Shown: positions 20,760 through 29,898, numbered from the stretch's first letter. The stretch is DNA of 64,000 nt from Haloarchaeobius amylolyticus (GCF_026616195.1 NZ_JANHDH010000001.1:1798001-1862000); one strand, 5' to 3'. Notes: generated by a model not told the origin, from the sequence alone. Numbers and translations: made by a program.

Positions 20760-21560
20760 ATGAAGGTTCTCGTCACCGTCAAGGAGGTGGCTGCCGTCGA
20801 GGACGAATTCCAGATCGATGGCACGTCCATCGACGAGACGTACCTCGAATACGACCTCAACGAGTGGGACGACTACGCGGTCGAAGAAGCCGTCCAGCTC
20901 CAGGAGAACGGCATCGCCGACGAAGTCGTCGCCGTGACCATCGGGCCGGAGCGGTCCGAGGAGACCATCCGGATGGCCCTCGCGAAGGGCGCGGACCGTG
21001 CGATCCGCGTCTGGGACGACGCCCTCGCGGACACCGACCTGCTCGACGTCGGTGCGAAGACACGCATCCTCTCGGCCGTCGTCGCCGAGGAGGACCCGGA
21101 CCTCGTGCTCAGCGGCGTCCAGGCCGACGACGACGGGTTCGGCGCGACGGGCGTCTCGCTCGCCGACGAGATCGACTACGAGTGGGCCGCGGTCGTGAAC
21201 GACCTCGACCACGACGCGCTCGAGGGCGAGAACGTCGCGAAGGTCCACCGCGAACTGGAGGGTGGCGTCGAGGAGCTGACCGACGTGGAGCTCCCCGCCG
21301 TCCTCACCATCCAGACCGGTATCAACGAGCCGCGCTACGCCAGCCTGCGCGGCATCCGGATGGCCCAGCGCAAGGAGATCGACCCCAAGACGCTCGCCGA
21401 CCTCGGGCTGGACGCCGAGGCCGTCGCCAACGACCTGGAACTCACCGACATGTACGAACCCGAGTCCGAAGGGGACGCCACGTACTTCGAGGGCGGCCCG
21501 GAGGACGAAGCCGCACAGCTCGCTGACCTCCTGCGGGAGAAGGGGGTGGGTGCGCAATGA
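20760..21560 (+). CDS. etfB: Electron transfer flavoprotein beta subunit
   Basis: 266 residues. Small subunit of the FAD/AMP heterodimer that passes electrons from acyl-CoA and other dehydrogenases to the quinone pool. Family features are MKVLVTVKEV, YDLNEWDDYAVEEAVQL, the AMP-binding-type VLSGVQADDDGFGATGVSLAD and LPAVLTIQTGINEPRYASLRGIRMAQRKEI. Its stop overlaps the etfA ATG by four bases, so translation is likely coupled. Confidence 0.96.
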   Translation: MKVLVTVKEVAAVEDEFQIDGTSIDETYLEYDLNEWDDYAVEEAVQLQENGIADEVVAVTIGPERSEETIRMALAKGADRAIRVWDDALADTDLLDVGAKTRILSAVVAEEDPDLVLSGVQADDDGFGATGVSLADEIDYEWAAVVNDLDHDALEGENVAKVHRELEGGVEELTDVELPAVLTIQTGINEPRYASLRGIRMAQRKEIDPKTLADLGLDAEAVANDLELTDMYEPESEGDATYFEGGPEDEAAQLADLLREKGVGAQ

Positions 21561-22513
21561 GCGACATCCTCGCAATCGCCGAGCACCGCCGCGGTGAACT
21601 GCGCGACGTGAGCTTCGAACTCGTCACGGCCGGCCGCGAACTCGCGGACGCCACCGGGGGCGACCTCCACGTCGCCGTCATCTCCGGCAACCTCGACGAC
21701 TTCGCCGAGCAGCTCAAGCTCGAGGGCGTCGACACCATCCACACCGTCTCCAACGGTGAGGAGTTCAACCACGACGTGTACGCCCAGGCCGTCGAGCAGC
21801 TCTACGACGCCATCGGGCCGCAGGTCCTGCTCATGCCGAACTCGGTCAACGGGCTGGACTACGCGCCCGCGGTGGCCAACAGTCTCGACCTGCCCTACGT
21901 CAGCGACGTGGTCGGCATGGATATCGACGGCGACACCCTGACCGCCACGCGCGAGATGTACGGCGGGAAGGTCGAGACCACCACCGACGTCCCGGCCGAG
22001 CACGTCGCGGTCTCCATCCGTGGCGCCGAGTGGCCGACGACCGAGGCCACCGCCGACGCGGCCGTCGAGTCCTTCGACGTGGACATCGACGAGGACGCGG
22101 TCCGGTCGACCGTCACCGGCTTCGAGGAGGTCGGCGGCGGCGACGTCGACATCAGCGAGGCGGACGTGCTCGTCAGCGTCGGCCGCGGCATCGAGGAGGA
22201 GGACAACCTCGACCTCATCTTCGACCTCGCCGAGGCGCTGGACGCGACGGTCTCGTCCTCGCGTCCCATCGTCGACGCCGGCTGGCTCCCGAAGAACCGG
22301 CAGGTCGGCCAGTCCGGGAAGGTCGTCACGCCCGACGTGTACATCGCCATCGGCATCTCCGGGGCGGTCCAGCACGTCGCCGGCATGAAGGGTGCCGACA
22401 CCATCGTCGCCATCAACACCGACCCGAACGCGCCCATCTACGACATCGCGGACTACGGTATCGTCGACGACCTGTTCGAGGTCGTCCCGGCGCTCACCGA
22501 GCAGTTCTCCTGA
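21557..22513 (+). CDS. etfA: Electron transfer flavoprotein alpha subunit
   Basis: 318 residues. The C-terminal FAD-binding domain is clear: SSRPIVDAGWLPKNRQVGQSGKVVTPDVYIAIGISGAVQHVAGM, then IVAINTDPNAPIYDIADYGIVDDLFEVVPALTEQF. The N-terminal domain pairs with etfB. The last 35 bases of the gene plus 17 bases of 3' flank are repeated exactly 101 bases downstream (see repeat). Confidence 0.96.
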   Translation: MSDILAIAEHRRGELRDVSFELVTAGRELADATGGDLHVAVISGNLDDFAEQLKLEGVDTIHTVSNGEEFNHDVYAQAVEQLYDAIGPQVLLMPNSVNGLDYAPAVANSLDLPYVSDVVGMDIDGDTLTATREMYGGKVETTTDVPAEHVAVSIRGAEWPTTEATADAAVESFDVDIDEDAVRSTVTGFEEVGGGDVDISEADVLVSVGRGIEEEDNLDLIFDLAEALDATVSSSRPIVDAGWLPKNRQVGQSGKVVTPDVYIAIGISGAVQHVAGMKGADTIVAINTDPNAPIYDIADYGIVDDLFEVVPALTEQFS

Positions 22514-22530
22514 GGGAGCGGCCCGTTTTT
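22479..22530 (+). repeat. Direct repeat copy 1: etfA 3' end plus flank (52 bp)
   Basis: These 52 bases, covering the last 11 codons and stop of etfA and the T-rich run GCCCGTTTTT, recur exactly at 22580-22631 (period 101 bases). Bases just outside differ (g/t on the left, g/c on the right). Copy 1 is the functional gene end. Confidence 0.95.
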
Positions 22531-22538
22531 GGTCCAGC

Positions 22539-22570
22539 TTTTTCCGTGGTTCCCCCGGAACCCGGAAAAA
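22539..22570. terminator. Strong hairpin between the two etfA-end repeats
   Basis: Inverted repeat: TTTTTCCG, one unpaired T, GGTTCC, three-base loop CCC, GGAACC, CGGAAAAA. This gives about 14 paired bases flanked by T and A runs, symmetric enough to act in both directions. It sits 26 bases after the etfA stop. Archaeal terminators rely mainly on T-runs, so a role in 3' end formation or RNA stability is inferred. Confidence 0.6.
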
Positions 22571-22579
22571 GGTGGTCGT

Positions 22580-22631
22580 AGGTCGTCCCGGCGCTCACCG
22601 AGCAGTTCTCCTGAGGGAGCGGCCCGTTTTT
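22580..22631 (+). repeat. Direct repeat copy 2: duplicated etfA 3' end
   Basis: Exact copy of 22479-22530. It encodes an orphan out-of-context tail of etfA (VVPALTEQFS and stop) and repeats the T-run GCCCGTTTTT. It therefore supplies a second copy of the probable termination signal. It looks like a local tandem duplication. Confidence 0.95.
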
Positions 22632-22833
22632 CGTCCTGTTTTTTCTGCGGGTCCGGAGCAGCGTCCGCCATCCAGAGGTACATCTAGTCTCTGTTAGTTC
22701 GGGGCGGGCCGTGGTATCGTGACCCCCATGAGAACTGTACTCGTTCTCTCGAAAACGTGGGTAACAATACCATACAACACTCATTGTAAATCGGCAATCA
22801 GATATAAGTCCCTGAAAAGATAGTTGACGACTC
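22632..22833 (+). promoter_or_regulatory. Upstream region of the BMP lipoprotein gene
   Basis: AT content rises sharply after about 22680. An inverted repeat GAGAAC-N7-GTTCTC occupies 22730-22748. TATAAG at 22803-22808 is a good TATA box, 26-31 bases before ATG 22834, so the mRNA is probably leaderless. ATTG and CAAT half-sites at 22782-22799 flank the box. No gene is seen in the stretch from 22514 to 22833 apart from the duplicated etfA tail. Confidence 0.55.
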
Positions 22834-23955
22834 ATGGAGAGGACCTCTACGAGGCGAGCGGTAATGGCCGGTGCTGGCGGTGGCATCGCGTCCGCGCTCG
22901 CCGGGTGCACGTCCGTCGTTCCTGGGATGGGAGACGACGGCGACCCTGCCGACGACACGGAGACAGCGACGAGACAGTTCGACGAGAGCGAGACGTACAT
23001 CGGGATGCTGTACGCGACCGGTGGGCTGGGCGACGACTCGTTCAACGACATGGCCAACCGCGGCGTCAAACTGGCGCGCGTCCGCCACGGAATCGAGTAC
23101 AAGAACGAGGTGCCGGCGGGCGTCGACGAGATCGGGACGCTCCAGGCCCAGTACGCGAAGTCCGCGCAACCGGCGTTCGACCTCACGGTCTGCGTCGGGT
23201 TCCTGCAGCAGGAACCGCTCTCGAAGACCGCGAAACAGTACCCCGACCAGCGGTTCATGCTGGTCGACTCGGTCGTCGACCGGGACAACGTGGCGAACTA
23301 CGTGTTCAAGGAGCACGAGGGCTCGTTCCAGGTGGGGGTACTGGCGGGCGCACTGACCGGGCAGGGGTTCTCGGCCGGCGCCGGCCAGACCCGGCTCGAC
23401 CGGAAGACCGTCGGCTTCGTCGGCGGCATCGAGTCCGGGCTCATCAAGAAGTTCGAGGCCGGGTTCATGGCGGGCGCGAAGCACGCCGACCCCGACGTCG
23501 AGGTACTCAGCGAGTACGTCGGCAGTTTCAGCGACATCGAGGGCGGCAAGCAGGCCGCCCAGTCGATGTACGACGAGGGCGCGGACATCGTCTACCACGC
23601 GGCCGGTGGGACCGGCCTCGGCGTCTTCCAGGCCGCCCAGCAGAACGGGCGCTTCGCCATCGGCGTCGACTCTGACCAGTCCGAGTCCGACCCGCGGTAC
23701 GCGAACGTCATCCTCGCGAGCATGGTCAAGCGGGTCGACACGGCGGTGTTCAACGCCATCCAGAACGTCCACGAGGGCGAGTACAACGGCGGCTCCGTCC
23801 AGTCGCTCGGCCTCGAACAGGACGGCGTCGCGGTGGCGTACGGGAACGACCTCGGGCCACAGATACCCGAGACGGCGACCAACCAGATCGACGACACCCG
23901 GTCGAAGATCGTGAACGGGGAGATCGACGTGCCGACGACGCCGGAGGAGGTCTGA
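22834..23955 (+). CDS. BMP-family (PnrA/Med type) substrate-binding lipoprotein
   Basis: 373 residues. The N-terminus MERTSTRRAVMAGAGGGIASALAGCTS has a twin-arginine signal and the lipobox LAGC (Cys25), so it is a Tat-exported lipoprotein. The body is a BMP-family periplasmic-binding fold: YIGMLYATGGLGDDSFNDMANRGV, QRFMLVDSVVDRDNVANYVFKEHEGSFQVGVLAG, VGFVGGIESGLIKKFEAGFMAGAKH, DIVYHAAGGTGLGVFQAAQ. BMP proteins bind nucleosides or related ligands and normally feed an ABC transporter. Here no permease or ATPase gene follows; a transducer gene starts one base after the stop. This implies a chemotaxis-dedicated binding protein like BasB/CosB of Halobacterium. Confidence 0.9.
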   Translation: MERTSTRRAVMAGAGGGIASALAGCTSVVPGMGDDGDPADDTETATRQFDESETYIGMLYATGGLGDDSFNDMANRGVKLARVRHGIEYKNEVPAGVDEIGTLQAQYAKSAQPAFDLTVCVGFLQQEPLSKTAKQYPDQRFMLVDSVVDRDNVANYVFKEHEGSFQVGVLAGALTGQGFSAGAGQTRLDRKTVGFVGGIESGLIKKFEAGFMAGAKHADPDVEVLSEYVGSFSDIEGGKQAAQSMYDEGADIVYHAAGGTGLGVFQAAQQNGRFAIGVDSDQSESDPRYANVILASMVKRVDTAVFNAIQNVHEGEYNGGSVQSLGLEQDGVAVAYGNDLGPQIPETATNQIDDTRSKIVNGEIDVPTTPEEV

Positions 23956-23956
23956 G

Positions 23957-26368
23957 ATGGCGGACGACTCTCGCTCCATCGGCGCGCTGCTCACGCCGGG
24001 GTTCATCCGGCGTCGCTACTCGCTGAAGTTCGCCGTCTCCATCCTGCTCGTCGTCGTCGTCATCGGGTCGGTCGGTGCCGTCGGCTACGTGCAGACGAAG
24101 GACACGGTCGAATCGAACACCAAGGTCCAGCTCCAGGAGACGAGTTCGCTCCGGGCGTCCTCGCTCTCGGAGTGGACCGACAGCATGCGCATCCAGACCC
24201 GGGCCGTCTCCGCGAGCGAGGAACTCCGGAGCGACCAGGACGGGACCGCAGAACGGTACCTGCAGACCCGTGAATCCCGGCTGTCCGCGGACATCCTCGG
24301 GATGCACATGGTCAACAGCTCGACCGGCGAGGTGATGGCGAGCACGGACCCCATCGAGGGCTTCGCGCTCGAGGAACTCGGCGTCCCGTGGGCCCAGGCT
24401 GACCTGACGGGCCAGACCGCCGAGGAGGCCGACCAGGTGTGGGTCTCCGACAGCTCCTACGAGTCGCCCCTGACCCCGTACACGCGCGGGAACGTGGTGG
24501 CCTTTGCGAGCGCGGTGCCGAACACCGAGGACCGCTACGTGGTCGTCGTGACGCGTATCCAGAGCCACCTCGACACCATCAAGGACTCCGAGACGGAGGG
24601 CCAGACCCGCATCATCAACGAGAACGGCGGGACGGTCCTGACGCCCGGCGGCTCCATCGACCAGAACGTCCACGGCGACGGGCTCCAGACCGCCCGCTCG
24701 TCCGACGACACGGCGTTCGCGACCGCCGGTGGACAGGTACACGCGTACGCGCCCGTGGAGGGGACCGACTGGGTCGCCATCACGAGCGTCGACACCGAGA
24801 CGGCGTTCGCCGTGCGCGACACCGTCGGCCAGAACGTCCTGTTCATCGTGGTCAGCGGCCTGGTCGCGCTCGGCTTCGTCGGCGTCGTGCTCGGTCGCCA
24901 GACCGTCACGCCGCTGTCGCGCCTGCGCGACCGCGCCAGCCAGATGGAGGAGGGCAACCTGAACGTCGACCTCGAGACGGGTCGCGTCGACGAGATCGGC
25001 CGGCTGTACGACGGCTTCGCCGAGATGCGCGACTCGCTCCGGAACCAGATCCAGGAGGCAGAGGCCGCCCGCAGCGAGGCCGAGGCCGCCCGGAACGAGG
25101 CGGAGCAGCTGAACAAGCACCTCGAACGCAAGGCCGACGAGTACTCGCAGGTGATGCAACAGGTCGCCGACGGCGACCTCACCCGGCGCATGGACGCCCA
25201 GTCCGAGAACGAGGCGATGACGTCCATCGCGAACGCGTTCAACGACATGATCGCCCAGATGGACGAGACCGTCGCGCAACTGCGCGTCTTCGCGACCTCC
25301 GTCGCGAGCGCGTCCGAGGAGGTCACGGCGAGCGCCGAGGAGGTCCAGAGCGCGAGCCAGCAGGTGTCGACGTCGGTCCAGGAGATCTCCGACGGTGCCG
25401 AGCGCCAGAACGAGCAGTTCCAGTCCGTCTCCGCCGAGATGGACTCGCTCTCGACGACCACCGAGGAGATCGCCGCCTCCTCCAACGAGGTCGCCGACCT
25501 GGCCCAGCGGACCGCCGAGACTGGCAGTGCGGGCCGCGACGCGGCACAGGACGCCATCGACAGCATGGGCGAGATCGAAGAGGAGTCCTCCGACGCGGTC
25601 GACGCCATCGAGGAACTCGAGGCCGAGATGGAGCAGATCGACGAACTCATCGAGTTCATCTCCGACCTCGCCAAGGAGACGAACATGCTCGCACTGAACG
25701 CGAACATCGAGGCCTCCCGCGGGTCCGCCGACGGGAGTGGCGGTGGCGGGGACGGCTTCGCGGTCGTCGCCCAGCAGGTCAAGGAACTCGCCGCCGAGAC
25801 GAAGGACGCCGCCGAGGACATCGAGGACCGCCTCGAGGGCATCCAGGAGAAGACCGACCGGACCGCCGAGGAGGTCCAGAAGACCTCGAAGCGCGTCTCC
25901 GAGAACCGCGTCGCGGTCGAGAACGCGGCGGACGCGCTCGAGCAGATCGCGACGTACGCCCAGCGGACCAACGACGGCGTCCAGGAGATCTCCGCGGCCT
26001 CCGAGGAGCAGGCCGCCTCCACCGAGGATATCGTCGCGATGGTCGACGAGGCCGCGACCATCTCCGAGGAGACCACCGCCGAGGCCGAGAACGTCGCCGC
26101 CGCCGCCGAGGAGCAGACCTCCTCGCTGTCGGAGGTCACGAAGAGCGCGTCCAGCCTGGCCCAGCAGGCGTCCCAGCTGAGCCGCGCGCTGGACCGGTTC
26201 GAGACCGAGTCGGAGGGGGAGACGGGCGAGGGCCCGCTTCTGGCCGACCAGCTCTCCGTGTCCGGTGACGCGGTCGACGACGCGCCGGCAGACGACGCCA
26301 GCGACGACGCGACCAGCGCGTTCGAGTTCGAGCGACCGAACCGGCCGGACCAGGGCGAAGACGACTGA
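23957..26368 (+). CDS. Methyl-accepting transducer (Htr), partner of the BMP lipoprotein
   Basis: 803 residues. TM1 at ~24-46 (LKFAVSILLVVVVIGSVGAVGYV), an extracellular sensor of the dCache type (~47-295), TM2 at ~296-316, and HAMP domains (residues ~317-470, including the repeat GDLTRRMDAQSENEAMTSIANAFNDMIAQM). A long MCP coiled coil follows, with the CheA/CheW-contacting hairpin LAKETNMLALNANIEAS at ~571-590. Methylation-type Glu/Gln pairs flank it, and the end is acidic (EFERPNRPDQGEDD). It is spaced one base from the BMP gene, so co-transcription is almost certain. Likely ligand: whatever the lipoprotein binds. Confidence 0.93.
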   Translation: MADDSRSIGALLTPGFIRRRYSLKFAVSILLVVVVIGSVGAVGYVQTKDTVESNTKVQLQETSSLRASSLSEWTDSMRIQTRAVSASEELRSDQDGTAERYLQTRESRLSADILGMHMVNSSTGEVMASTDPIEGFALEELGVPWAQADLTGQTAEEADQVWVSDSSYESPLTPYTRGNVVAFASAVPNTEDRYVVVVTRIQSHLDTIKDSETEGQTRIINENGGTVLTPGGSIDQNVHGDGLQTARSSDDTAFATAGGQVHAYAPVEGTDWVAITSVDTETAFAVRDTVGQNVLFIVVSGLVALGFVGVVLGRQTVTPLSRLRDRASQMEEGNLNVDLETGRVDEIGRLYDGFAEMRDSLRNQIQEAEAARSEAEAARNEAEQLNKHLERKADEYSQVMQQVADGDLTRRMDAQSENEAMTSIANAFNDMIAQMDETVAQLRVFATSVASASEEVTASAEEVQSASQQVSTSVQEISDGAERQNEQFQSVSAEMDSLSTTTEEIAASSNEVADLAQRTAETGSAGRDAAQDAIDSMGEIEEESSDAVDAIEELEAEMEQIDELIEFISDLAKETNMLALNANIEASRGSADGSGGGGDGFAVVAQQVKELAAETKDAAEDIEDRLEGIQEKTDRTAEEVQKTSKRVSENRVAVENAADALEQIATYAQRTNDGVQEISAASEEQAASTEDIVAMVDEAATISEETTAEAENVAAAAEEQTSSLSEVTKSASSLAQQASQLSRALDRFETESEGETGEGPLLADQLSVSGDAVDDAPADDASDDATSAFEFERPNRPDQGEDD

Positions 26369-26546
26369 GGTCCACCGCGGACTCCCGCATCGCCCGGTCG
26401 CCCGTCTTCGAGATAACCAGTGGCTACCCGTCTGTTTTCGTTCATATCTCCGGACGCGGGAACGATGATAGAATCACCATGCCGAGCGGCGAAAAGTATC
26501 CGAAATCGAAGAAAGATACATACGTTTTGGGAAATACTTGCATGTA
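26369..26546 (+). promoter_or_regulatory. AT-rich promoter region of the second transducer
   Basis: Spacer of 178 bases between the two transducer genes; AT content rises from about 26400. Purine-rich GAAGAAAGATACATACG at 26509-26525 contains the best TATA-like candidate, about 25-35 bases before ATG 26547. No gene seen. Confidence 0.45.
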
Positions 26547-28928
26547 ATGTCAGGTGTGCTGGGACGACTCATACCAGGGCCAATCCGGCGGAGTTACGCG
26601 TTGAAGTTCGCGCTCGCACTGTTCAGTGTGCTCGTCATCATCGGTGGTGTCGGCGGGTACATCTACCTCAACACTGGGACGGCACTCCAGGAGGACACGA
26701 GCCGCGAGCTCTCGACGAGCGCCGAGATGCAAGCACAGTTCATCGACCAGACGCTGCGTGAGACCAGGACGGCAGTACAGGGGCTGAGTACCGCCGACGC
26801 GGTCCAGAGCGAGGGCGGCAGCGACCAGATAACCGCGTTGATGCAGAGTGCGGCGTCACACGAGTACGTCGACTCGATATACTACGTCGATACGTCGTCC
26901 GGTGAGATACAGCAGCAGGTTGGCAAGGGCACCGGCGCGAACGGGAACAGCCTCACCGACGCGTTCACGACGAGACTCGACGAGATGGACTCGGCAGCCC
27001 CCGGACAGGTCGCGACCAGCGACCCCTTCAGCGTGGAGGACTCGAAGGTGATGGTCGTCCGGAGCGACGTGCCGAACCAGGAAGGCCAGTCGTTCGTCGC
27101 GGTGCTCGACATGCAACTGCTGTCGGTGACGGCCCTCCCGCAGGTGAGCTACGGTGAGGTCGTCGTCGTCGACCAGTCCGGGACCGTGATGCTGTCGGCC
27201 GAGCGGTCACAGATATTGCAGTCGGACGTCATCTCACCGGACCAGCTCGACGGCGAGGACGACTTCGAGACGCTGGAGACCAGCGACGGGGAGAAGGCCG
27301 TCGGGTTCCAGGAGCTGACGACCGAGGACTGGACCGTCACCCGGCGGGTCCCGCAGTCGACGGCGTTCGCCCTGCAGGAGAACATCCTGACCCAGCTCGT
27401 GACGATGCTCGGGCTGGCGTTCGGGAGCATCCTCCTCATCGGGATGACCATCGGCCGGAACACGGTCAAGTCGGTCGCGAACCTCTCCGCGAAGGCCGGT
27501 GACATCGAGGAGGGCGACCTCCAGACCCAGATCGAGACCGGGCGGGTCGACGAGATCGGTCAGCTGTACAACTCCATCGACAGCATGCGGGGGTCCCTGC
27601 AGGAGCAGATCGCCGCGGTCCAGCAGGCCCGGACCGAGGCCGAGCAGGCACAGGCCGAGGCCGAACAGATGAACCGGCACCTCGAACGGAAGGCGGACCA
27701 GTACCGCGACGTGATGCAGGCGTGTGCCGCCGGGGACCTCACCCAGCGCATGGACGCCCAGTCCGAGTCCGAGGCGATGGCCGACATCGCCAACGAGTTC
27801 AACCGGATGGTCGCGGAGCTGGAGGAGACGACCGACCGCGTCAAGGCGTTCGCGAGCGACGTGGCAACCGCCTCCGAGGAGGTCACCGCGAGTTCCGAGG
27901 AGGTCCGCTCCGCGTCCGAACAGGTCACGGAGTCGGTCCAGGAGATCTCCGATGGCGCCGAGCGCCAGAACCAGAGCCTCCAGTCGGTCAACACCGAGAT
28001 GGACGCGCTCTCGACGACGACCGAGGAGATCGCCGCCTCCTCCAACGAGGTCGCCGACCTCGCCGAGCGCACGGCCCAGACCGGCCGGAGCGGTCGTGAC
28101 GCCGCGGAGGACGCCATCGAGGGCATGAGCGAGATCCAGGACGAGTCCGCGGAGGCGGTCGACGCCATCGAGGAACTCGAGACCGAGATGGAGCAGATCG
28201 ACGAGCTCATCGAGTTCATCTCCGGGCTGGCGAAGGAGACGAACATGCTCGCGCTGAACGCCAACATCGAGGCGTCCCGCGGCGGTGGCGGCGAGGGCGA
28301 CGGTGACGGCTTCGCGGTCGTCGCCCAGCAGGTCAAGGAGCTGGCCCAGGACACCAAGGAGACCGCCGAGGACATCGAGAAGCGCCTCGAGACCATCCAG
28401 GACCAGACCGACCGGACCGCCGAGGAGGTCCAGCGCACCTCCAGCCGCATCGCCGAGCACGCCGGCTCGGTGCAGGCCGCGGTCGAGGCACTGGACGAGA
28501 TCGCCGAGTACGCCCAGCAGACCAACGACGGCGTCCAGGAGATCTCCGCGGCGACCGAACAGCAGGCGGCCTCGACCGAGGAGGTCGTCGCCATGGTCGA
28601 CGAGGCCGCGACCATCTCCGAGGAGACGACTGCGGAGGCCGAGAACGTCGCCGCCGCCGCCGAGGAGCAGACCACGGCCCTCACCGAGGTGTCGAACAGT
28701 GCGAGCGACCTCGCGGACCAGTCCGCCCGCCTGAGCGAGGCACTGGACCGCTTCGAGACCGACACGGAGCGCGTCGAGTCCGAGTCGTGGGGCGACGCGG
28801 AGGCCGCCATGTTCGAGGAGGCGGCCGAGGACGAGGACTTCGAGGCGGAGACTCTGGAGACGCCGGACCCCGGTGACGGGCCGGCAGCCGACGGGGACGA
28901 CGACAGTTTCGAGTTCGGCGACCACTGA
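26547..28928 (+). CDS. Second methyl-accepting transducer (Htr)
   Basis: 793 residues from ATG 26547 (MSGVLGRLIPGP); a TTG nine bases upstream is in frame. TM1 is at ~16-38 (YALKFALALFSVLVIIGGVGGYIYL), the extracellular domain at ~39-282, and TM2 at ~283-304 (LVTMLGLAFGSILLIGMTIGR). HAMP and MCP domains follow, with the signalling hairpin GLAKETNMLALNANIEAS at about 562. The cytoplasmic domain is very close to the upstream transducer while the sensor domain has diverged. An AT-rich region with a TATA-like GATACATACG precedes it, so it may have its own promoter. Confidence 0.92.
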   Translation: MSGVLGRLIPGPIRRSYALKFALALFSVLVIIGGVGGYIYLNTGTALQEDTSRELSTSAEMQAQFIDQTLRETRTAVQGLSTADAVQSEGGSDQITALMQSAASHEYVDSIYYVDTSSGEIQQQVGKGTGANGNSLTDAFTTRLDEMDSAAPGQVATSDPFSVEDSKVMVVRSDVPNQEGQSFVAVLDMQLLSVTALPQVSYGEVVVVDQSGTVMLSAERSQILQSDVISPDQLDGEDDFETLETSDGEKAVGFQELTTEDWTVTRRVPQSTAFALQENILTQLVTMLGLAFGSILLIGMTIGRNTVKSVANLSAKAGDIEEGDLQTQIETGRVDEIGQLYNSIDSMRGSLQEQIAAVQQARTEAEQAQAEAEQMNRHLERKADQYRDVMQACAAGDLTQRMDAQSESEAMADIANEFNRMVAELEETTDRVKAFASDVATASEEVTASSEEVRSASEQVTESVQEISDGAERQNQSLQSVNTEMDALSTTTEEIAASSNEVADLAERTAQTGRSGRDAAEDAIEGMSEIQDESAEAVDAIEELETEMEQIDELIEFISGLAKETNMLALNANIEASRGGGGEGDGDGFAVVAQQVKELAQDTKETAEDIEKRLETIQDQTDRTAEEVQRTSSRIAEHAGSVQAAVEALDEIAEYAQQTNDGVQEISAATEQQAASTEEVVAMVDEAATISEETTAEAENVAAAAEEQTTALTEVSNSASDLADQSARLSEALDRFETDTERVESESWGDAEAAMFEEAAEDEDFEAETLETPDPGDGPAADGDDDSFEFGDH

Positions 28929-29055: not shown

Positions 29056-29898
29056 ATGGAGTTCCTGGAGCGGCGGCGTGGGCTGGTCGACGACCGGTTA
29101 GTGGAGGTGCTCGACGCCGTCGAGCCCCCCGAACTGGCCGACGAATTGCGACACGTCTCGCTCTCGGGGGGCAAGCGGGTTCGCCCGACCGTGACGGTGC
29201 TGGCCTGCGAGACGGCCGGCGGGAACGCCGAGGACGCCGTCGACTTCGGGGTCGGCATCGAACTCGTGCACAACGCGTCGCTGGTCGTCGACGACATCAT
29301 CGACCAGTCCGACATCCGCCGCGGGACCGCCGCGGCGTGGGCAGAATACGGCTACGGGCCGGCCATCATCGCCTCCGACGGCCTGCTCGGGGAGGCGTTC
29401 GCGCTGTTCTCCTCCGAGCCGCAGGCGATGCAGATCGTCTCCGAGGCGATGGTCGAACTCGGCGAGGGCGAGGCGACCGAGATCGTCGCCCAGCCGACGA
29501 ACGAGCGCGAGTACATGGAGCTCGCCCGCCGGAAGACGGGGGCGCTGTTCCGGGCGGCCGCCGAACTGGGCGCGGTGGCGGCCGGCGCGGACGGCTACAC
29601 CATCGAGGCGCTTGGCGAGTACGCCGAGCGCGTCGGTATCGCCTTCCAGATCCGCGACGACGTGCTCGACGCGACCGCGGACGCCGACGACCTCGGGAAG
29701 CCGACCGGACAGGACGCCGAGATGGACCGGCCCTCGGTCGTGCAGGTGACCGACCTCACGCCCGAGGAGGCCAACGAGCGCGCCGAGGCCGAGGCCGAGG
29801 CGGCGCTGGAGGCGCTCTCGAAGGTCGATACGGGCGACACCGAGGCGGCGGAGTACCTGCGTGATTTGGCGCGGTTCGTCGTCGTGCGGGAGCGGTAG
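29056..29898 (+). CDS. Polyprenyl (geranylgeranyl/farnesyl-type) diphosphate synthase
   Basis: 280 residues from ATG 29056. trans-prenyltransferase with first aspartate motif DDIID (VHNASLVVDDIIDQSDIRRG) and second aspartate motif RDDVLDATADADDLGK. It also has the family SLSGGKRVRP substrate-binding stretch. Such enzymes build the C20/C25 chains of archaeal lipids or the quinone side chain. The enzyme is shorter than many IdsA proteins (~330-350 residues), and chain length cannot be read reliably. Confidence 0.88.
   Translation: MEFLERRRGLVDDRLVEVLDAVEPPELADELRHVSLSGGKRVRPTVTVLACETAGGNAEDAVDFGVGIELVHNASLVVDDIIDQSDIRRGTAAAWAEYGYGPAIIASDGLLGEAFALFSSEPQAMQIVSEAMVELGEGEATEIVAQPTNEREYMELARRKTGALFRAAAELGAVAAGADGYTIEALGEYAERVGIAFQIRDDVLDATADADDLGKPTGQDAEMDRPSVVQVTDLTPEEANERAEAEAEAALEALSKVDTGDTEAAEYLRDLARFVVVRER

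Follow-up and report, generated by a model that had tools for sequence, protein, structure and literature searches.

A gene for a BMP-family lipoprotein and the transducer gene directly behind it in Haloarchaeobius amylolyticus are, judging from their sequences, a real, conserved binding-protein-type chemoreceptor pair, probably for nucleosides. We consider it likely that the two products work together as an attractant receptor in which the lipoprotein, closed over a nucleoside, docks on the transducer (Htr1), with uptake served by a separate BMP-ABC transporter. The window, that is, the whole stretch of DNA analyzed, is 64 kb long; gene calls were heuristic and were made on individual genome stretches. 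The features of the locus are as follows.

20760-22513, plus strand: etfB-etfA, flavoprotein genes, left anchor of the locus (71-86% identical genes flank a binding-protein/Htr pair in f1 family genomes)
22802-22808, plus strand: TATA-like box ATATAAG, read in the sequence, 26-32 nt before the BMP ATG
22834-23955, plus strand: BMP/PnrA-family Tat lipoprotein, the proposed nucleoside-binding receptor subunit (Pfam, PDB relatives, AF2 and Foldseek, orthologues)
22834-22908, plus strand: Tat signal peptide and lipobox, through the lipidated Cys25
23041-23730, plus strand: ligand-pocket codons F70 to K299 (F70, D145, F207, F232, V278, D279, and K299), from the TmpC alignment, published structures (PMC13325309, PMC7093131), and conservation
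23943-23950, plus strand: GGAGGAGG, Shine-Dalgarno-like, read in the sequence within the BMP 3' end, 6 nt before the Htr1 start
23957-26368, plus strand: Htr1, transducer and cognate partner of the BMP lipoprotein (HAMP, 2e-15; MCPsignal, 1.1e-31; two TM segments)
24101-24820, plus strand: extracellular sensor of Htr1 (amino acids 49-288), dCache-like (AF2 pLDDT 84.1; Foldseek against dCache chemoreceptor domains, E 1e-10 to 1e-7)
24887-25042, plus strand: HAMP domain of Htr1 (Pfam)
25538-26062, plus strand: MCP signalling domain of Htr1 (Pfam)
26547-28928, plus strand: Htr2, a second transducer with an unrelated sensor and without a binding-protein gene (Pfam HAMP and MCPsignal, two TM segments; absent here in Haloarchaeobius iranensis, loci L084/L162)
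29056-29898, plus strand: idsA, prenyl diphosphate synthase, right anchor of the locus (start set by 280-amino-acid orthologues; the listed ORF begins at 28873)

The BMP ORF encodes 373 amino acids and scored 204.8 bits with the Pfam Bmp model (PF02608), for which the cut-off is 24.1. The N terminus carries a twin arginine (R7R8) and a lipobox, LAGC, with G24 and C25; these residues were invariant across 15 orthologues. The initial annotation, which had described the product as a Tat lipoprotein of the BMP/PnrA type followed one base later by an Htr transducer, was right on both points: the BMP stop codon TGA is followed by a single G and then by the ATG of Htr1 at 23957. GGAGGAGG may couple the translation of Htr1 (803 amino acids) to that of the BMP gene, and the ATATAAG box is consistent with a leaderless or near-leaderless haloarchaeal transcript. 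Because the former precedes the Htr1 start and the latter precedes the BMP gene, the pair can be read as a single operon driven from a promoter of its own. Further upstream, a 75-nt direct repeat (92%; 22479-22553 and 22580-22654) spans the 3' end of etfA and a T-rich terminator-like sequence, the copy being a duplication upstream of the BMP promoter.

Several lines of evidence bear on the ligand. We mapped the nucleoside-pocket residues of BMP-family proteins (PMC13325309, PMC7093131) onto the lipoprotein by alignment with TmpC; adding 15 to the chain index puts Asp 27, Ser 28, and Phe 186 in agreement with the published numbering. By this mapping, F70 and F232 would stack on the base and D145, D279, and K299 would hold the ribose, and F207 and V278 also fall in the pocket. 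The two stacking and three ribose residues were kept in all 27 Htr-linked BMPs aligned. The AF2 model had a two-lobe fold like that of nucleoside-bound PnrA/Lbp (pLDDT 78.8, with a range of 54.8 to 78.8 across five models built on an alignment of 15 sequences), and its best Foldseek matches were nucleoside-bound PnrA, Lbp, BmpD, and TmpC (E 1e-26 to 1e-24; 1.8e-26 to 7x0r). The PDB relatives were nucleoside complexes by sequence as well as by fold. PnrA/TmpC, BmpA/BmpD, pneumococcal PnrA, and Lbp share the fold, the stacking Phe pair, and the ribose Asp/Asp/Lys with the window BMP, but they serve ABC transporters, whereas the window BMP is paired with an Htr. Since its relatives are nucleoside complexes and the stacking and ribose residues are kept, the lipoprotein likely binds a nucleoside. 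The base-edge residues Asp27/Ser28 of TmpC are replaced by Ala61/Thr62, so that the base preference of TmpC is not transferable. Position 61 is usually Ala or Ser in both the Htr-linked and the transporter-linked haloarchaeal BMPs; at position 62, 22 of the 27 Htr-linked proteins have Leu, and most transporter-linked BMPs have Thr. Riboflavin (bound by RfuA) and other small molecules are ligands of other proteins with the BMP fold, and a lineage dedicated to taxis may have drifted. The pair could then be a binding-protein-mediated taxis receptor for a non-nucleoside ligand, which we regard as unlikely. This reading draws on the base-edge residues that differ from TmpC, on the frequent Leu62, on the presence of RfuA and AtzT among the fold matches, and on a weak match to the NCBIfam putative-B6 model (72.5 bits, where the cut-off is 400). 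However, all of the ribose and stacking residues are retained, and the nearest matches are the nucleoside complexes, RfuA following with an E value of 2e-19.

The pairing is widespread and strict. The sensor type of Htr1 was found in 33 of 292 haloarchaeal genomes, with an adjoining BMP gene in every one, an adjacency far beyond chance. Each of the best 30 matches to the Htr1 sensor was immediately preceded by a BMP gene in the same orientation; the other three are G083 and G106, adjacent by coordinates, and the Halobacterium salinarum pair, recognized by sequence. Gaps between the two genes ranged from -4 to +6 nt in the 19 pairs measured, and each of the 33 genomes encoded at least one further BMP. 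The conservation of the pair, for which the initial annotation had proposed a check, was thereby found throughout the clade. A scan of named genomes gave two classes of BMP loci, BMP-ATPase-permeases and BMP-Htr, the latter in Halorubellus, Haloarchaeobius, Halorhabdus, Halorubrum, Haloarcula, and Halobacterium. When 73 BMPs were placed in a tree, those linked to an Htr, 27 in all, formed a single clade (100/99); because this clade is nested among transporter-linked BMPs, its origin is most simply explained by one recruitment from a transport protein. Positions special to the Htr-linked BMPs, among them N75, R76, R82, and R288, are grouped after the first pocket strand and the DxDQ motif; plausibly, these are the rims of both lobes, which would fit an altered docking partner. 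The reversed order, Htr and then BMP, was found with a separate BMP lineage in Halorussus aquaticus (L207, 3434-6990) and in another f6-group genome (L274, 1813-5429), and by their lineage these loci represent a second, separate recruitment.

At the same locus in many genomes of the f1 family, the ETF genes are followed by a PF13458 (LIV-type) lipoprotein gene, an Htr, and idsA. These LIV-type pairs share with the window pair the ETF-idsA locus and the signalling part of the transducer (64-70% identical to Htr1), but the binding protein is unrelated and the sensor has diverged (34-39%). Compared with BMP-paired Htrs of families f2, f3, and f4, Htr1 was 39-46% identical in the sensor and 49-51% in the signalling part. 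When trees were built from 52 transducers, the sensors of the 20 BMP-paired Htrs all fell into a single clade (100/99), whereas the signalling parts of the same 20 Htrs were split across a 100/100 branch, and forcing them together was rejected (AU p=0.00015). A first test of this chimerism (p=0.00024) had used few outsiders; the result held when it was rerun with 16 more transducers. With the sensor clade unified and the trunks split, the trees indicate that the binding protein and sensor on the one hand and the signalling trunk on the other have different histories. On this evidence, the binding protein and sensor appear to have been swapped as a unit on a locus-specific trunk, so that the sensor goes with the binding protein and the trunk goes with the locus. 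We give about an even chance to the combined proposal that receptors are exchanged at the ETF-idsA locus in Haloarchaeobius, Halorubellus, and their relatives, where a LIV or BMP unit with its dCache sensor is placed on a retained trunk, and that the BMP form acts as a nucleoside chemoreceptor. The initial annotation did not mention the exchange of binding proteins here. Two pairs, one BMP-Htr and one LIV-type-Htr, lie at 5.5-9 kb and 20.6-24 kb in a Halorubrum-type genome (G177:C75; L090, L256); some 14 kb separates them, and their trunks differ.

Binding-protein-mediated taxis in Halobacterium is known from BasB-BasT (branched-chain amino acids, Met, and Cys) and CosB-CosT (compatible osmolytes). 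In these systems, as in the window pair, an exported binding protein adjoins its own two-TM Htr with a sensor, a HAMP domain, and an MCP signalling domain; their binding-protein families differ from BMP. A Halobacterium binding-protein gene next to an Htr matched PF13458 and is a candidate for BasB; we take it to be probably this gene because of its adjacency to the Htr. In Halobacterium salinarum DSM 3754, we found a lipoprotein(-), an Htr(-), an Htr(+), a BMP(+), and an Htr(+) gene in this order within about 19 kb. Order, strands, and spacing match OE2196F, Htr18 (OE2195F), Htr4 (OE2189R), OE2170R, and Htr6 (OE2168R), and by these features, rather than by the R1 sequence, the BMP-Htr pair matches OE2170R-Htr6. 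The lipoprotein beside the probable Htr18 (L229, 16477-17727; candidate OE2196F) had no Pfam match and is an unclassified binding protein. As in the window, the BMP lipoprotein gene of OE2170R-Htr6 lies directly before the Htr (gap, -4 nt), and the two pairs share the BMP clade (100/99) and the sensor clade (100/99). Their chromosomal places differ, and the signalling trunk of Htr6 is 49% identical to that of Htr1. Because the signalling domains lie on opposite sides of the 100/100 branch (AU p=0.00015), Htr1 is, on these trees, not a full-length orthologue of Htr6. Schlesner et al. 2012 (PMC3579733) report that OE2170R, described there as a putative periplasmic substrate-binding protein, was recovered together with Htr6 and the chemotaxis core in affinity purification, and a table there lists Htr6 without an assigned signal. 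The earlier proposal of a nucleoside-type taxis receptor is partly supported: the pair is conserved and the predicted nucleoside pocket has been preserved, but pairs of this type were known before. What that study already reports is the physical OE2170R-Htr6 pairing, and what is added here is the family, the probable ligand, and the spread. The literature that we found gave no protein family for OE2170R and no description of nucleoside taxis in archaea. To our knowledge, a nucleoside chemoreceptor would be the first in this domain.

The lack of a transporter at the locus was also examined. In a profile search of the genome (4.6 Mb, with the window on contig 1), none of the 19 matches to the BPD_transp_2 permease family (PF02653) lay inside the 64-kb window, which bears out the earlier statement that no ABC permease gene is nearby. 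No ATPase or permease genes accompany the BMP-Htr1 pair at the locus; they are present beside the genome's other BMP copy. This second of the two PF02608 proteins is encoded 0.94 Mb away, is 52-57% identical to the window BMP, and heads a complete operon in which its gene is joined by those for an ATPase, two permeases, a cytidine deaminase, and a uridine phosphorylase. A distant BMP-type ABC transporter had been raised as the possible true partner of the lipoprotein; this transporter owns a separate BMP protein, and the receptor idea survives. dCache sensors can bind ligands directly. Htr1 might therefore sense a ligand of its own, with the lipoprotein as an extra for the distant BMP-ABC and the co-transcription a historical accident. 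The predicted dCache fold of the sensor would allow this, and a binding protein and a permease could meet in trans. Neither the Htr1 nor the Htr2 sensor had a Pfam match, and the dCache fold was seen in predicted structure only. We nevertheless find this explanation quite improbable: the canonical R.WY amino-acid motif of dCache sensors was sought in the Htr1 sensor and is absent, the sensor phylogeny tracks the binding-protein family (BMP clade, 100/99) with universal adjacency in the clade, the distant transporter has its own BMP, and the pair from Halobacterium is reported to be recovered with the chemotaxis core (PMC3579733).

Htr2 follows Htr1, and its start is probably the ATG at 26547 (793 amino acids) rather than the TTG at 26538. 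It had been described as a second transducer with a near-identical signalling domain and a different sensor. The sensors are indeed different (21% identical); "near-identical" overstated the rest, since the signalling parts are 69% identical over HAMP and trunk and about 73% in the core. Gene conversion between Htr1 and Htr2 was unsupported, the longest exact match being 41 nt and no high-identity tract being present. The Htr2 sensor had a best identity of 35% to any other sensor in the 292 genomes, and a search of eight loci with Htr2-like receptors revealed no evident partner binding protein; an aminopeptidase-like gene was a neighbour in some. The trunk of Htr2 is nearest (74%) to that of an Htr with a BMP-type sensor at the ETF-idsA locus of Haloarchaeobius iranensis, and Htr2 may be an older resident of the locus whose sensor was changed. 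On contig C6 of the same genome (L272, 1441-6313), an Htr with an Htr2-like sensor stands in tandem with creatininase-like and aminopeptidase-like genes, with a similar neighbour in L126 and L131; sensing of a breakdown product by the L272 transducer is possible.

In the receptor that we favor, the lipoprotein would be exported by the Tat pathway and anchored at the outer face of the membrane via Cys25. It would close over a nucleoside, its family, fold, pocket, and lipobox being observed and the ligand inferred, and the closed form would dock on the dCache sensor of Htr1. The signal would then run from HAMP through the MCP trunk to CheA/CheW and the archaellum. We infer the docking and signalling steps from the parallel with BasB-BasT and CosB-CosT and from the published finding that the Halobacterium proteins co-purify. 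Nucleosides would be taken up by the separate BMP-ABC transporter, whose genes lie beside those for cytidine deaminase and uridine phosphorylase. Such a receptor would have arisen from a unit of BMP and BMP-type sensor set on a trunk of the ETF-idsA-locus type, where relatives hold a LIV-type binding protein and the matching sensor. It is very improbable, in our view, that the pair has decayed or signals something other than taxis in this strain. The insertion of Htr2 downstream and the finding of only eight MCPs in the genome would fit a pair that does not work as a taxis receptor, but both ORFs are intact, the pocket, HAMP, and signalling domain are conserved, and CheA/CheW and archaellin genes are present. 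A broken cheA, raised by a TGA flag, was ruled out, the cheA frame being open.

In Escherichia coli, Tap mediates a response to pyrimidine deoxyribonucleosides that is proposed to be indirect, via a periplasmic binding protein (PMC12584664). Nucleoside sensing through a binding protein is what we propose for the window pair as well, but Tap is bacterial and its binding protein lacks a name, so that a named binding-protein/receptor pair would be useful for comparison. Htr6 of Halobacterium salinarum, which has no listed signal, gains a testable candidate ligand class, and if the proposal is true, nucleosides join the known archaeal attractants. The swapping of unrelated binding proteins and their matching sensors on a similar trunk would offer a natural experiment on chemoreceptor docking and activation, and this exchange of modules suggests that chimeric receptors may be buildable from binding-protein, sensor, and trunk parts.
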